From Aquitalea magnusonii (GTDB taxonomy: Bacteria; Pseudomonadota; Gammaproteobacteria; Burkholderiales; Chromobacteriaceae), in contig NZ_AP018823.1 in the NCBI RefSeq assembly GCF_002217795.2, positions 1,488,001-1,552,000 on the forward strand: 64,000 bases of DNA. The letters are read 5' to 3'. A program made the position numbers and the translations under genes. The notes under the pieces were generated by a model. It was given only the letters and a program-made list of their open reading frames with translations. It was not told the origin of the DNA and searched no databases. Positions 3,946 to 45,407 of the stretch are shown in pieces. Numbering within the stretch: position 1 is the stretch's first letter; every line of letters starts with the position of its first letter.

Positions 3946-6546
3946 TCAAGCGGTGGTGGACTCCAGGAAGTCCTGGGCGAAGCGTTGCAGCACGCCGCCA
4001 GCCTGATACACCCGCACTTCGGCGGCGGTATCCAGACGGCAGGTGACCGGCACTTCCAGCGTCTCGCCATTGCGACGGTGAATCACCAGCGTCAGCGTGC
4101 AGCGCGGCGAGATGTCGCCCTTGACGTCGTAGCTTTCGGTACCGTCAATGGCCAGGGTTTTGCGGTTGGTGCCGGCCTTGAATTCCAGCGGCAATACGCC
4201 CATGCCCACCAGGTTGGTGCGGTGGATGCGTTCGAAGCCTTCGGCCACGATGGCTTCCACCCCGGCCAGCCGCACGCCCTTGGCTGCCCAGTCACGCGAG
4301 CTGCCCTGGCCGTAGTCGGCACCGGCAATGATGATCAGCGGCTGTTTGCGCGCCATATAGGTTTCGATGGCCTCCCACATGCGGGTGACCTTGCCTTCCG
4401 GCTCGATGCGCGCCAGCGAACCCTTCTTCACCGCGCCATCCACCACGGCCATTTCGTTCACCAGTTGCGGATTGGCAAAGGTGGCGCGCTGGGCGGTGAG
4501 GTGGTCGCCACGGTGGGTGGCGTAGGAGTTGAAGTCCTCTTCCGGCAAGCCCATCTTGGCCAGGTATTCACCGGCAGCCGAGCTGGGCAGGATGGCGTTG
4601 GACGGCGACAGGTGGTCGGTGGTGATGTTGTCCGGCAGCACCGCCAGCGGCAGCATGCCCTTGAGCGTGCGCTCGCCAGCCAGCGCGCCTTCCCAGTAGG
4701 GCGGACGACGGATGTAGGTGGACATCGGACGCCAGTCGTACAGCGGGCTCTTGGCTTCTTCCACCTGACCCAGGTCGAACATCGGGATGTACACCTGCTT
4801 GAACTGTTCCGGCTTCACGCAGCGTGCCACGATGGCGTCGATCTCATCATCGGACGGCCACAGGTCCTGCAGGCGGATTTCCTTGCCATCCACCACGCCC
4901 AGCACGTCTTTTTCGATATCAAAGCGCACGGTACCTGCAATGGCGTAAGCCACAACCAGCGGCGGCGAGGCGAGGAAGGCCTGCTTGGCATACGGGTGGA
5001 TACGGCCATCGAAGTTGCGGTTGCCCGACAGTACGGCGGCGGTGTACAGGTCGCGGTCTATGATTTCCTGCTGGATTTTCGGGTCCAGTGCGCCGGACAT
5101 GCCGTTACAGGTGGTGCAGGCATAGGCGACGATGCCAAAGCCCAGCTTTTCCAGTTCCGGCAGCAGTCCGGCCTCTTCCAGATACAGCCTGGCCACCTTG
5201 GAGCCCGGAGCAAACGAGGACTTCACCCACGGCTTGCGCAGCAGGCCCAGTTCGTTGGCTTTCTTGGCCAGCAGGCCGGCGGCCACTACATTGCGCGGGT
5301 TGCTGGTGTTGGTGCAGCTGGTGATGGCGGCAATGATGACCGCGCCATCCGGCAGCAGGCCTTCGGCTTCTTCGGCACGGGCCTTGTCCAGGTCAACCGC
5401 AATGCCGCGCTCGGCCAGTGCCGAGGTGGGCAGACGCTTGTGCGGGTTGGACGGGCCAGCCATATTGCGCACCACGCTGGACAGGTCGAATTCCAGCACA
5501 CGCTCGTATTGCGCGCTTTCCAGGCTGTCGGCCCACAGGCCGCTGACCTTGGCATAGTTTTCCACCAGCGCCACTTGCTCGGCTTCGCGGCCGGTCAGCT
5601 TGAGGTAGTCGATGGTTTGCTGGTCGATGTAGAACATGGCCGCGGTGGCGCCATATTCCGGACACATATTGGAAATGGTGGCACGGTCGCCGATGGACAG
5701 GCTGGCAGCGCCATCACCAAAGAATTCCACGTAAGCGCCCACCACACGTTCCTTGCGCAGGAACTCGGTGAGGGCCAGCACGATGTCGGTGGCGGTAATG
5801 CCGGGCTGGCGCTGGCCGGTGAGCTTGACGCCCACGATGTCCGGCAGGCGCATCATGGACGGGTGGCCCAGCATCACGGTTTCCGCTTCCAGGCCACCCA
5901 CGCCGATGGCAATCACGCCCAGCGCATCCACGTGCGGGGTGTGGCTGTCGGTGCCGACACAGGTGTCGGGGAAGGCCACGCCGTCACGCACCTGAATCAC
6001 CGGCGACATTTTTTCCAGATTGATCTGGTGCATGATGCCGTTGCCGGCAGGAATCACGTCCACGTTCTTGAAGGCAGTCTTGGTCCACTCGATGAAGTGG
6101 AAGCGGTCTTCATTGCGACGGTCTTCAATGGCGCGGTTTTTTTCGAAAGCCTGCGGGTCGAAACCACCACATTCCACGGCCAGCGAGTGGTCGACAATCA
6201 ACTGTGTCGGCACCACCGGGTTGACCAGCGAGGGGTCGCCACCCTTGTCGGCAATGGCGTCGCGCAGACCGGCCAGATCCACCAGTGCGGTCTGGCCCAG
6301 AATGTCGTGGCACACCACGCGCGCCGGATACCAGGGGAAATCCAGGTCGCGCTTGCGTTCGATCAGTTGCTTGAGCGCGTCGGTCAGCAGTTCCGGTTCG
6401 CAGCGGCGCACCAGTTGCTCGGCCAGTACGCGCGAGGTATAGGGCAGGGTGGCATAGGCGCCGGGCGCAATGGCGTCAACGGCGGCGCGGGTGTCGTAGT
6501 AGTCCAGCTGGCTGCCGGGCAATCGGGTGCGGTAGTTTTTGTTCAT
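3946..6546 (-). CDS. acnD: Fe/S-dependent 2-methylisocitrate dehydratase AcnD
   Basis: An 866-residue aconitase-superfamily enzyme that dehydrates 2-methylcitrate to 2-methylaconitate in propionyl-CoA breakdown. The N-terminus MNKNYRTRLPGSQLDYYD and the length fit AcnD rather than AcnA. The cluster cysteines appear in TSCTNTSNP and ACTTCNG, the usual three-Cys arrangement for a [4Fe-4S] centre. The C-terminal swivel domain contains the conserved YGQGSSRDWAAKG segment. Its position directly upstream of prpF and downstream of prpC supports AcnD. The long open frame on the opposite strand is a codon-bias shadow. Confidence 0.96.
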   Translation of the reverse strand: MNKNYRTRLPGSQLDYYDTRAAVDAIAPGAYATLPYTSRVLAEQLVRRCEPELLTDALKQLIERKRDLDFPWYPARVVCHDILGQTALVDLAGLRDAIADKGGDPSLVNPVVPTQLIVDHSLAVECGGFDPQAFEKNRAIEDRRNEDRFHFIEWTKTAFKNVDVIPAGNGIMHQINLEKMSPVIQVRDGVAFPDTCVGTDSHTPHVDALGVIAIGVGGLEAETVMLGHPSMMRLPDIVGVKLTGQRQPGITATDIVLALTEFLRKERVVGAYVEFFGDGAASLSIGDRATISNMCPEYGATAAMFYIDQQTIDYLKLTGREAEQVALVENYAKVSGLWADSLESAQYERVLEFDLSSVVRNMAGPSNPHKRLPTSALAERGIAVDLDKARAEEAEGLLPDGAVIIAAITSCTNTSNPRNVVAAGLLAKKANELGLLRKPWVKSSFAPGSKVARLYLEEAGLLPELEKLGFGIVAYACTTCNGMSGALDPKIQQEIIDRDLYTAAVLSGNRNFDGRIHPYAKQAFLASPPLVVAYAIAGTVRFDIEKDVLGVVDGKEIRLQDLWPSDDEIDAIVARCVKPEQFKQVYIPMFDLGQVEEAKSPLYDWRPMSTYIRRPPYWEGALAGERTLKGMLPLAVLPDNITTDHLSPSNAILPSSAAGEYLAKMGLPEEDFNSYATHRGDHLTAQRATFANPQLVNEMAVVDGAVKKGSLARIEPEGKVTRMWEAIETYMARKQPLIIIAGADYGQGSSRDWAAKGVRLAGVEAIVAEGFERIHRTNLVGMGVLPLEFKAGTNRKTLAIDGTESYDVKGDISPRCTLTLVIHRRNGETLEVPVTCRLDTAAEVRVYQAGGVLQRFAQDFLESTTA

Positions 6547-29086: not shown

Positions 29087-29472
29087 GTGGTGAGTTCTCC
29101 CTCGTTGCGTCTTGATTTGTAAGTATTGTTTTGCTTTTTTCACCCGATTACGGATGTCGGGCTAATGTAAAACAACCGTTTGAAATCGGCAATCGCGCTA
29201 TGGGCTGAGTACGTGTCAGCTGGGTGGTCAGTCAGTGACAGCTGTGTACTTTTTGCTTTGCAAGGGGCGGCAGTGTGTGTTTTATGGAGCAGCCATCTCG
29301 ATGGACAAAGCGTTGTTCGCTGGCTTGGCCGCTAGGGCGGCAGCCTGTGGCAATGGAGCATGCGGTGGCTCTGTTGGGACTCTCGCAATGTCGGAATGCG
29401 CGCAGCAAAAGATCTGAGGGGAATCGCCAGGAGGGCAGATTCGGGCTGGTGCAGTGTTTGTTTCGACGCTAA

Positions 29473-29510
29473 CAACAACCCGGCTTGCCCATTTGGCAGC
29501 CGGGTTGCTT
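29473..29510 (-). terminator. Terminator of the 92-residue unknown gene
   Basis: CAACCCGGCT (29476-29485) pairs with AGCCGGGTTG (29498-29507). On the minus strand it is followed by TTGTTGTTAG. It closes the C4-like locus on its downstream side. Confidence 0.7.
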
Positions 29511-29532: not shown

Positions 29533-29811
29533 TTAAGCCAGCAATTGCTGTTGTTGCTGCTGCAAACCTAGCAAGCCCTGCATTAAGTGCCTGCGGTAGG
29601 CATCAGACGGGTGCAAGGCAAGCAAGGCCAATACCGCCTCCAGCGTCTGGGCCTGCTGCCGCAATGCGGATTCCAGCTGGGCAAAACCACGTGCCAAATC
29701 CTGCACCGGGCTGCGCAGTGCGGCAAAGCGGTCCTGCTGGAGCATGGTCTGCAGCAGGACGATGTGTTGGCGAATCAGGGGGAGGATGGGTGTGGTGGTT
29801 TGGTGTGTCAT
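29533..29811 (-). CDS. Unknown 92-residue helical protein, last gene of the C4-like locus
   Basis: Not recognised. ATG 29811 overlaps the stop of the preceding small frame (ATGA) and has GGGAGGG eight bases upstream, so it should be translated. The protein is predicted to be all helix with heptad-like leucines and ends LLGLQQQQQQLLA. It has no signal peptide and no membrane segment. Its position downstream of the antisense-RNA-like leader makes it the likely regulated product, comparable in place to ant after icd in phage P1, but no sequence similarity to Ant is claimed. A terminator follows the stop. Confidence 0.6.
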   Translation of the reverse strand: MTHQTTTPILPLIRQHIVLLQTMLQQDRFAALRSPVQDLARGFAQLESALRQQAQTLEAVLALLALHPSDAYRRHLMQGLLGLQQQQQQLLA

Positions 29812-29990
29812 GAGCTGCGCCCTCCCGTTGGTTGGCATAGGGCGGAGGCGGCAAGCAAGTAAACAGGGAAAATCATGAATGGTCTCCTGGAATGTTTACC
29901 TGCCGCCCGACGCCAATCGGGGGTGGCAGGCACATGGCAGGATTGGCGTACCGTAACCAGGAACGGCGCCTCGTAAGAGGCTCCCACCAT
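29808..29990 (-). CDS. Ash/Icd-like small reading frame
   Basis: One frame with three possible starts: TTG 30050, ATG 29990 (60 residues) and ATG 29876 (22 residues, MIFPVYLLAASALCQ). The last has by far the best ribosome-binding site, AGGAG at 29884-29888 seven bases upstream. The upstream part (MVGASYEAPFLVTV, then SCHVPATPDWRR) resembles from memory the phage Ash / Icd-like family, whose frames overlap P4-type immunity RNA. The GATTGGCGTCGGGCGG bases match the position where those frames encode EIGVSGG. The stop is coupled to the next gene. Confidence 0.35.
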   Translation of the reverse strand: MVGASYEAPFLVTVRQSCHVPATPDWRRAAGKHSRRPFMIFPVYLLAASALCQPTGGRSS

Positions 29991-30080
29991 GGCCCGCCAT
30001 AGAAGACGTGCAATGGTGTACGGACGCGACAAAGCATGGGCTTTGACCAAAGTCCGTCTGATTACAGGACGCCAATCCCG
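29908..30080 (-). ncRNA. C4/CI-like antisense immunity RNA locus
   Basis: Read on the minus strand: box A GGATTGGCGT (30078-30069), an intervening hairpin (30038-30055), a GCCTC-GTAA-GAGGC hairpin (29968-29981), box B ACGCCAATCC (29949-29940) and box C GATTGGCGT (29918-29910). B is the exact complement of A (10 bases) and of C (9 bases). Two target copies flanking one antisense copy in a single leader is the arrangement of phage P1/P7 C4 and P4 CI RNAs, in which the processed antisense RNA pairs with the leader and blocks translation or causes early termination. Box C lies 21 bases before a strong ribosome-binding site. The end points of any processed RNA are unknown. Confidence 0.5.
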
Positions 30081-30107
30081 ATGCCGCTATTGAACGGCAC
30101 GGTGGGG

Positions 30108-30136
30108 ATTATCTAGTGCTGCGGGTGGGAAGGCAA
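30108..30136 (-). promoter_or_regulatory. Sigma-70 promoter of the C4-like locus
   Basis: On the minus strand TTGCCT (30136-30131), 17 bases, GATAAT (30113-30108). The expected transcription start near 30101 puts box A about 23 bases into the RNA. The rest of the 30137-30245 stretch shows nothing recognisable. Confidence 0.6.
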
Positions 30137-40216: not shown

Positions 40217-41755
<1,539 letters not shown>

Positions 41756-41816
41756 GAGAAGGCGATCGTCAAGTATTCACAGCCTATCGGTTATTCGAGA
41801 TTTTAAGGGTTTGACT

Positions 41817-41893
41817 GGGTTTGTAGCTCAGCTGGTTAGAGCACTGTGTTGATAACGCAGGGGTCGAAGGTTCGAGTCCTTCCAGACCCACCA
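41817..41893 (+). tRNA. tRNA-Ile (GAT)
   Basis: A 77-base tRNA in the 16S-23S spacer. Acceptor GGGTTTG pairs with CAGACCC, anticodon GAT at 41851-41853, CCA encoded at the 3' end. Confidence 0.97.
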
Positions 41894-41897
41894 GTTT

Positions 41898-41973
41898 GGG
41901 GGATTAGCTCAGTTGGGAGAGCACCTGCTTTGCAAGCAGGGGGTCGTCGGTTCGATCCCGTCATCCTCCACCA
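41898..41973 (+). tRNA. tRNA-Ala (TGC)
   Basis: A 76-base tRNA four bases after tRNA-Ile. Acceptor GGGGGAT pairs with ATCCTCC, anticodon TGC at 41931-41933, CCA encoded. Confidence 0.97.
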
Positions 41974-42059
41974 CCTCAACTCAAACAAAAACGCATCTGG
42001 AAACGTTGTTTCCGGGTATCTTTTTGTTTGCGTTGAATTGACCGCAAGGTCGAACGCCC

Positions 42060-42071
42060 GATCTTTAACAA
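42060..42071 (+). promoter_or_regulatory. boxA site in the 16S-23S spacer
   Basis: GATCTTTAACAA resembles boxA and sits upstream of 23S, the usual second antitermination site of rrn operons. Confidence 0.65.
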
Positions 42072-42258
42072 ACTGAAGAAGCCGAATTAATTAGACGGCG
42101 AAATGAAATGCATGAAGTTAACTCTGCATGCAGGACAAATCGTCATCTTGGGAATTTGATTGTATCTAATGTCATGTCGCCATCACAAAAGGGGCGGTGT
42201 GACATGTCGCACAAACACAATCCTGTCGGATTGGTAACTCAGGTTACTGAAATGATAG

Positions 42259-45146
<2,888 letters not shown>

Positions 45147-45289
45147 TCATTTGAGTGGCTTGGGAAACCGAGACCGGATGGATAGTGAATGTGCGACGCG
45201 ATCAAAGATCCAAGATAAGATACCTAATTAATTCAGTGATTCAGACGAAGTCTGGATGACAAAGCTTCTTCAAGTTTGTTGACAGTTTA

Positions 45290-45407
45290 TGTCTGGTGGC
45301 CATAGCGAGGTGGTCCCACGCCTTCCCATCCCGAACAGGACCGTGAAACGCCTTAGCGCCGATGATAGTGTGGCATTCGCCATGTGAAAGTAGGACACTG
45401 CCAGACT
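45290..45407 (+). rRNA. rrf: 5S ribosomal RNA
   Basis: About 118 bases. The 5' TGTCTGG end pairs with the 3' CCAGACT end, and the internal CGAACAGGACCGTGAAACG region is typical. It is the last gene of the rrn operon, followed by a terminator. The final base may differ by one or two. Confidence 0.95.

Follow-up and report, generated by a model that had tools for sequence, protein, structure and literature searches.

On the minus strand of the 64,000-nucleotide stretch of the Aquitalea magnusonii chromosome analysed here (the window), a C4-type antisense RNA lies between two sets of target boxes, upstream of a gene for a 92-amino-acid (92-aa) protein that is under purifying selection. C4 RNAs are textbook elements of phage immunity. 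Those described here stand alone on the chromosome, in several copies, before genes under selection, one of which, to judge by primer matches, is vioS. We consider it reasonably probable that the window locus is a C4-type immunity switch of a satellite or prophage, reduced to a chromosomal cassette of ~640 nt from promoter to terminator, which silences a small protein.

Anatomy of the locus

A reading made from the sequence alone had proposed a promoter, three boxes (A, B and C), an AGGAG ribosome-binding site, a small frame and a coupled 92-aa frame, and all of these were found on the minus strand where that reading had placed them. It also had the 92-aa gene closed by a terminator, and a terminator-like repeat is indeed present, just beyond the range that it gave. 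In the direction of the minus strand the promoter is followed by a1, b1, C4, a2, b2 over the ribosome-binding site, the leader, the 92-aa frame and the terminator-like repeat, so that the proposed target-antisense-target order holds (a1/b1, C4, a2/b2). The features are as follows.

30108..30136, minus strand: sigma-70-type promoter, TTGCCT-N17-GATAAT (-35 TTGCCT at 30136-30131, -10 GATAAT at 30113-30108)
30061..30111, minus strand: leader hairpin GTGCCG..CGGCAT with the a1/b1 region, weakly like Rfam c4-a1b1
30069..30078, minus strand: target box a1 (box A), GGATTGGCGT, a 10-nt exact complement of loop a'
30058..30064, minus strand: target box b1, which pairs with b' at 7 positions, including one G-U
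29919..30004, minus strand: C4 antisense RNA (Rfam RF01695, 60.4 bits, E 5.1e-10, gathering cut-off 45)
29954..29963, minus strand: loop b' of the C4 RNA, from the RF01695 alignment, complementary to b2
29940..29949, minus strand: loop a' of the C4 RNA (box B), ACGCCAATCC, exact complement of box A
29910..29918, minus strand: target box a2 (box C), GATTGGCGT, a 9-nt exact complement of a'
29884..29890, minus strand: target box b2 over the leader ribosome-binding site (CCAGGAG), a 6-nt exact complement of b' (29890-29885)
29888-29884, minus strand: AGGAG ribosome-binding site of the leader
29808..29876, minus strand: leader frame, 22 aa, its stop overlapping the 92-aa start (TCATGA)
29533..29811, minus strand: 92-aa frame, predicted helical protein, its ATG overlapping the leader stop
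29471..29507, minus strand: terminator-like inverted repeat, then TTGTT

The proposed C4 type was borne out by the covariance-model search, and C4 is the sole RNA family above its Infernal cut-off in the window besides one rRNA operon with two tRNAs. That operon is complete (window positions 40217-45406), and its tRNAs lie between the 16S and 23S genes. Base-by-base shuffling of the flanks of the C4 RNA (110 nt on the upstream side, 30 nt downstream) never gave both the 10-nt box A and the 9-nt box C in 20,000 trials. There is also a second box pair that the earlier reading did not contain, in which loop b' pairs with b2 and b1. The b2/b' duplex has an energy of -10.7 kcal/mol; exact complementarity alone finds nothing at the b1 site, the longest exact run (4 nt) being elsewhere.

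Upstream of the C4 RNA, the c4-a1b1 model gave 18.6 bits (gathering cut-off 46.7), and the isrK model (RF01394) at 30029-30100 stayed below its cut-off. Of 117 C4 loci, 48 have a loose promoter pattern within 150 nt upstream, compared with 22 of 575 control blocks, and the motif CAATAGC precedes the C4 RNA at 50 of the 117.

C4 loci in this genome and its relatives

The window locus is not unique, as it is one of nine C4 loci above the cut-off in this genome (one contig, 4.85 Mb). Across 61 genomes, C4 RNAs above the cut-off were found in 35, the source genome included; the set used below consists of the 117 listed loci in these 35 genomes with at least 45 bits, all of which were collected. 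Up to 37 matches occur in a single genome (G036), where tandem C4 copies, two or three and about 360 bases apart, were also seen at G036:C58:28068-28874, G036:C33:16971-17418 and G036:C97:36828-37286, some of these copies being under the cut-off.

The genes that follow the C4 RNAs of this genome are diverse. Besides the 92-aa gene of the window locus and a paralogue of 95 aa, two loci encode DUF1484 proteins of 114 aa (7e-10 and 8.5e-9), one has a gene of 132 aa, one a gene of 182 aa, and two have antirepressor-like proteins, one barely above the Bro-N cut-off and the other weakly similar. One more (L004, genome positions 2355802-2355886) has boxes a1 and a2 and no clear coupled gene. A conserved leader protein of ~58 aa (..STLPxxAEARALAALLVAQG..GFxVxEV..) follows 17 of the 117 C4 RNAs by a loose motif, with examples at L002, L043, L044, L045 and L062 among others. 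The isrK model is above its cut-off (52.7 bits) in one distant genome, G341, at L207:2161-2236 on the minus strand, where a C4 RNA and a DUF1484 gene follow closely downstream.

Covariation of loops and boxes

Whether the boxes change together across relatives was the refutation test named in the sequence-only reading itself, and C4 RNAs were found to fit their own boxes better than those of loci with a different loop. A script extracted a' and b' from each C4 RNA and searched 150 nt upstream and 75 nt downstream for their longest exact complements; this covered 116 of the 117 loci, G055:C18 being left out as the script found no stem motif there. For own versus foreign targets, the latter being those of loci with a different loop, the AUC was 0.895 (a1), 0.814 (a2), 0.817 (b1) and 0.876 (b2), with related loci counted many times in these and the following figures. 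Complementary runs of at least 7 nt were present in 87% (a1), 74% (a2), 66% (b1) and 71% (b2) of own pairs, compared with 14.7%, 10.5%, 7.1% and 4.4% of foreign pairs.

Duplex energies discriminate less well than exact boxes, in part owing to box types that recur at many loci. The means for own targets are -15.3 (b') and -15.9 (a'), against -11.1 and -11.5 for foreign ones, and the own target is best or tied at 23 of 116 loci for b' and 33 of 116 for a'. For the window locus, b' gives -11.5 with its own target and -11.8 with that of locus 2829599 in the same genome, so by this measure it is not specific within the genome.

These results bear on another explanation, that the C4 RNA is itself the functional part, acting in trans on incoming phages or other chromosomal targets, with the 92-aa gene secondary. 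The many copies per genome (nine here, up to 37 in G036), the locus at 2355802 with no clear coupled gene and the ability of the window b' to pair with another locus's target agree with it, as do 21 similar C4-related small RNAs of Acinetobacter baumannii, for which phage or host mRNA targets have been suggested (PMC5320573). But the boxes follow local targets, each C4 RNA tending to track those of its own operon with no common target among them, and the downstream gene is under selection, so we regard action in trans as decidedly unlikely.

The 92-aa gene and its cassette

Full-length copies of the 92-aa gene number nine, in 6 of the 10 genomes of the genus, with one further fragment; one related protein carries the label Aquitalea sp. 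A profile search with the 92-aa alignment returned 17 proteins, all but two of which had already been found with the single sequence. By a simple counting method, dN/dS is 0.10-0.49 in all 36 pairs of the nine copies (0.13-0.38 for the window copy); the gene is under purifying selection, a point in favour of the sequence-only reading. Seven of the nine copies have a C4 RNA above the cut-off before them, that of G002 scoring 42.8 bits, below it. By eye, the stop/start overlap between leader and 92-aa frame is kept in 8 of the 9, and a similar repeat lies 3' of the gene in other copies.

Seven copies, compared together with 4 kb of flanking sequence to either side, occupy two sites. Between the sites, homology is limited to the ~640 nt from about 140 nt before the C4 RNA to the terminator, and leader and box types are swapped between them. 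Copies at the same site also have flanking homology, most of it upstream, where it extends as far as the 4 kb examined (not as far in G003); in several pairs little or none is seen downstream. The genes flanking the window locus match MCP, PTA_PTB, acetate kinase and a DUF3418 helicase that we take to be HrpA. The cassette lies downstream of pta in G000 and G001, and in five genomes pta is followed directly by an MCP gene with no cassette between. Other genes follow pta in G003 and G005, the G003 cassette lying 2.1 kb further on; no pta match was obtained in G008.

Could the cassette simply be decaying, a functionless relic of the immunity region of a satellite or prophage that has since been lost? 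Some features would agree with this: relatives of the cassette lie near integrases, box b1 is weak in the window, and in the G006 copy (L198, G006:C9:89424-89699) a deletion has taken away the -10, the leader start and the C4 region, the 92-aa frame still being open. The dN/dS values and the retained stop/start overlap argue against decay. So does the pairing of b2 with b': the G001 relative at this site has exact fits of b' to b1 over 8 nt and to b2 over 9 nt, and the window locus differs from it in both b' and b2, which nevertheless still fit each other exactly over 6 nt. A decaying remnant is, in our judgement, unlikely.

Mobile-element context

The locus itself stands apart from mobile genes, as the sequence-only reading had held. 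The nearest integrase (PF00589) match is 203 kb distant, and no phage-type Pfam match was obtained among the 9 neighbouring frames, 7 of which had a Pfam match at 1e-10. Among the 50 C4 loci of the genus above the cut-off, nine have a PF00589 match no more than 5 kb away; 21 are on contigs with no integrase match, which is weak evidence of absence as many of the assemblies are drafts. At least one of the nine C4 loci of this genome is inside an integrase-bearing element: at locus 4397727, beside a gene that is presumably mnmE, the C4 RNA lies between an integrase and a DUF927 protein, with a small gene. In G032 and G023 the order is C4, a DUF1484 gene and a Toprim primase-type protein. A search of phage records and viral contigs with the 92-aa protein, a 114-aa protein and VioS gave no relative and thus no known phage carrier. 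Because relatives lie in such satellite-type contexts, the free-standing cassettes would best be read as the immunity part of a satellite or prophage left alone.

Nature of the 92-aa protein

The earlier reading supposed that the leader frame was Ash/Icd-like and that the 92-aa product was a toxin, phage-exclusion or defence protein, and this part of it did not stand, while its C4 type, box order, prophage-free setting and covariation did. The Ash/Icd-like leader is not supported, as there was no family match for the 22-aa leader in Pfam and for two 58-aa leaders of relatives in Pfam and NCBIfam. The 92-aa protein matched no Pfam family at E<=1, so the DUF1484 (PF07363) gathering cut-off was not reached either, and it had no match in PHROGs or PADLOC; its only two NCBIfam rows (E 0.035 and 0.16) are far under the cut-off. 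A defence product was rejected on the PADLOC result.

Profile comparison gives a different direction. Aligned by hhalign with DUF1484 (58 sequences), the 92-aa family scored 30.2 (probability 53.5%; only 20% in an earlier run with shallower alignments), and none of 200 column shuffles equalled this, their maximum being 20.0. Six other effector families reached at most 15.8 with the 92-aa protein and the 132-aa family 26.1; the 132-aa family itself matched DUF1484 at 94.5%. Two other helical effector families scored 23.0 and 24.1 with DUF1484, above the shuffle maximum; similarity between helices can by itself raise such scores, and the shuffles therefore overstate the margin over chance. On these alignments, DUF1484/VioS is the nearest of the profiles compared.

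AlphaFold2 predicts three helices for the 92-aa protein (9-23, 27-64 and 70-91; pLDDT 85) and for VioS (36-55, 60-105 and 113-137; pLDDT 63). The helix layout of the two models is the same, but simple helical bundles resemble each other, and searches of the PDB with both models gave no fold at E<=0.001. VioS of Chromobacterium subtsugae gave two weak coiled-coil-type rows in PADLOC (E 0.0053 and 0.018), which were not taken as meaningful. Profiles and models together make the 92-aa product, small and helical, a probable remote relative of DUF1484/VioS, and by analogy with VioS it probably works by binding a regulator. LuxI had no match in the 10 genomes of the genus, the same search being positive in G032 and G028, and this genome has one LuxR-type protein, at genome position 3657455; with no LuxI match in the genus, a quorum-sensing role is not simply transferable from VioS.

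P4 Kil is the product of such an operon. By analogy only, this and the reported inhibition of cell division by P1 Icd (PMC8198154) would fit a C4 RNA that holds down a toxin, exclusion or defence product. We think this very improbable for the window locus, given the empty Pfam, PHROGs and PADLOC searches, the NCBIfam values and DUF1484/VioS as the nearest profile.

Association with DUF1484 and VioS

The association of C4 RNAs with DUF1484 is new in this analysis. DUF1484 is the domain reported for VioS, a repressor of violacein (PMC5339254), which inhibits the quorum-sensing receptor CviR and binds it in the yeast two-hybrid system (PMC11019928; reviewed in PMC13043044). In the 61 genomes, 22 of 26 Pfam DUF1484 matches have a C4 RNA on the same strand within 1.7 kb upstream. 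Four of the 22 are at 0.8-1.3 kb, behind another DUF1484 gene, one has an internal stop, and two rest on C4 matches below the cut-off (39.9 and 40.4 bits). An order-wide search gave DUF1484 matches in 7 of 399 genomes, and in the distant G341 both full-length matches have a C4 RNA upstream. No C4 RNA was found near the three weakest, partial matches of this wider search (L204-L206).

VioS-like genes were found at 16 loci. A C4 RNA lies 46-52 nt upstream at eight and 0.8 kb upstream at two; six have no upstream C4 RNA above the cut-off, one of these having one downstream. By eye, VioS-like genes with no C4 leader (L041; L182, L183, L185, L186, L189 and L190) share a different upstream region, joined at the ribosome-binding site. 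It seems that their C4 leader was exchanged for a protein-controlled promoter, that of VitR in the literature, where vioS of C. violaceum is described as under this repressor (PMC11019928). We take L041 as CV_1055, which is of the kind with no C4 leader.

The authors who named vioS called for further investigation of its control (PMC5339254). All six published vioS primers for strain ATCC 31532, now C. subtsugae (PMC13043044), match locus L188 of C. subtsugae PRAA4-1 with zero mismatches, and the two promoter primers have no other match among 17 loci within one mismatch. By primer match, the published vioS is one of the eight VioS-like genes with a close C4 leader. The box fits at L188 are 12 nt (a1), 7 (a2), 9 (b2) and 5 (b1). 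Its promoter fragment spans 5585-5779 and box a1 begins at 5790, so that the fragment ends 10 nt before a1 and the published vioS promoter reporter carries none of the C4 region. In the open-access literature searched, we found no paper joining Chromobacterium with C4 antisense RNA, or VioS/CviR with antisense.

Proposed mechanism and significance

The cis elements for silencing of both the P1/P7 and the P4 type are all present in the window. One promoter would give one RNA carrying the C4 RNA, the leader and the 92-aa frame. The C4 part may then be cut out, as described for phages P1 and P7, in which RNase P releases C4 and the b' loop partly covers ribosome-binding sites (PMC5320573). Loops a' and b' would pair with a2 and b2, either within the transcript or on a sister one, and mask the leader ribosome-binding site, so that the leader would stay untranslated and the overlapping 92-aa start would not be reached. 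Transcription would probably also stop early, as with P4, where pairing of CI RNA with seqA and seqC is reported to lead to transcription termination (PMC4825925). Only while C4 falls short of its target RNA would the 92-aa product be synthesised.

More tentatively, we propose as a possibility that C4 cassettes form a chromosomal class of antisense-silenced anti-activators, satellite switches adopted by the host, of which VioS would be the one characterised product. If this is true, an RNA switch of phage type decides the release of a small protein that disarms a LuxR-type or similar regulator. A fall in vioS mRNA under translation inhibitors is reported, and it occurs in an airR mutant as well (PMC7240160). 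A link between leader translation and mRNA survival would explain how inhibitors lower vioS mRNA independently of AirR and turn on violacein; other causes fit this drop too. As the existing vioS promoter construct lies outside the C4 region, the switch could be tested in an established and visibly coloured system.

Comparison with known systems

In Salmonella Gifsy-1, IsrK-orf45-anrP is described as a leader RNA, a short frame and a downstream gene in a prophage operon (PMC4825925). This arrangement is similar to that of the window locus, where, unlike in Gifsy-1, the isrK model reaches only 28.3 bits against a cut-off of 50. The C4-like Group 1 small RNAs of A. baumannii are likewise reported as many per genome, with variable a' loops; phage or host targets have been proposed for them (PMC5320573), whereas the C4 RNAs here tend to track the boxes of their own operon.

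In the P4 CI system (seqA-CI-seqC), too, an antisense RNA is flanked by two targets that belong to the same transcript, and some C4 relatives here are upstream of primase-type genes. Unlike a P4-like satellite, the window locus has no integrase near it and no primase among the neighbours scanned. With immI of P1/P7 (c4-icd-ant) the locus shares the C4 fold, the a' and b' loops, the a1b1 and a2b2 targets, and a short frame with a coupled downstream gene. It differs in being outside a phage, with no Icd or Ant match, and its effector is a predicted small helical protein. On the protein side, VioS/DUF1484 differs in that the 92-aa protein has no Pfam DUF1484 match and the genus no LuxI match; what they have in common is a small protein predicted to form three helices and a position just after a C4 RNA, found for VioS at half of the loci.
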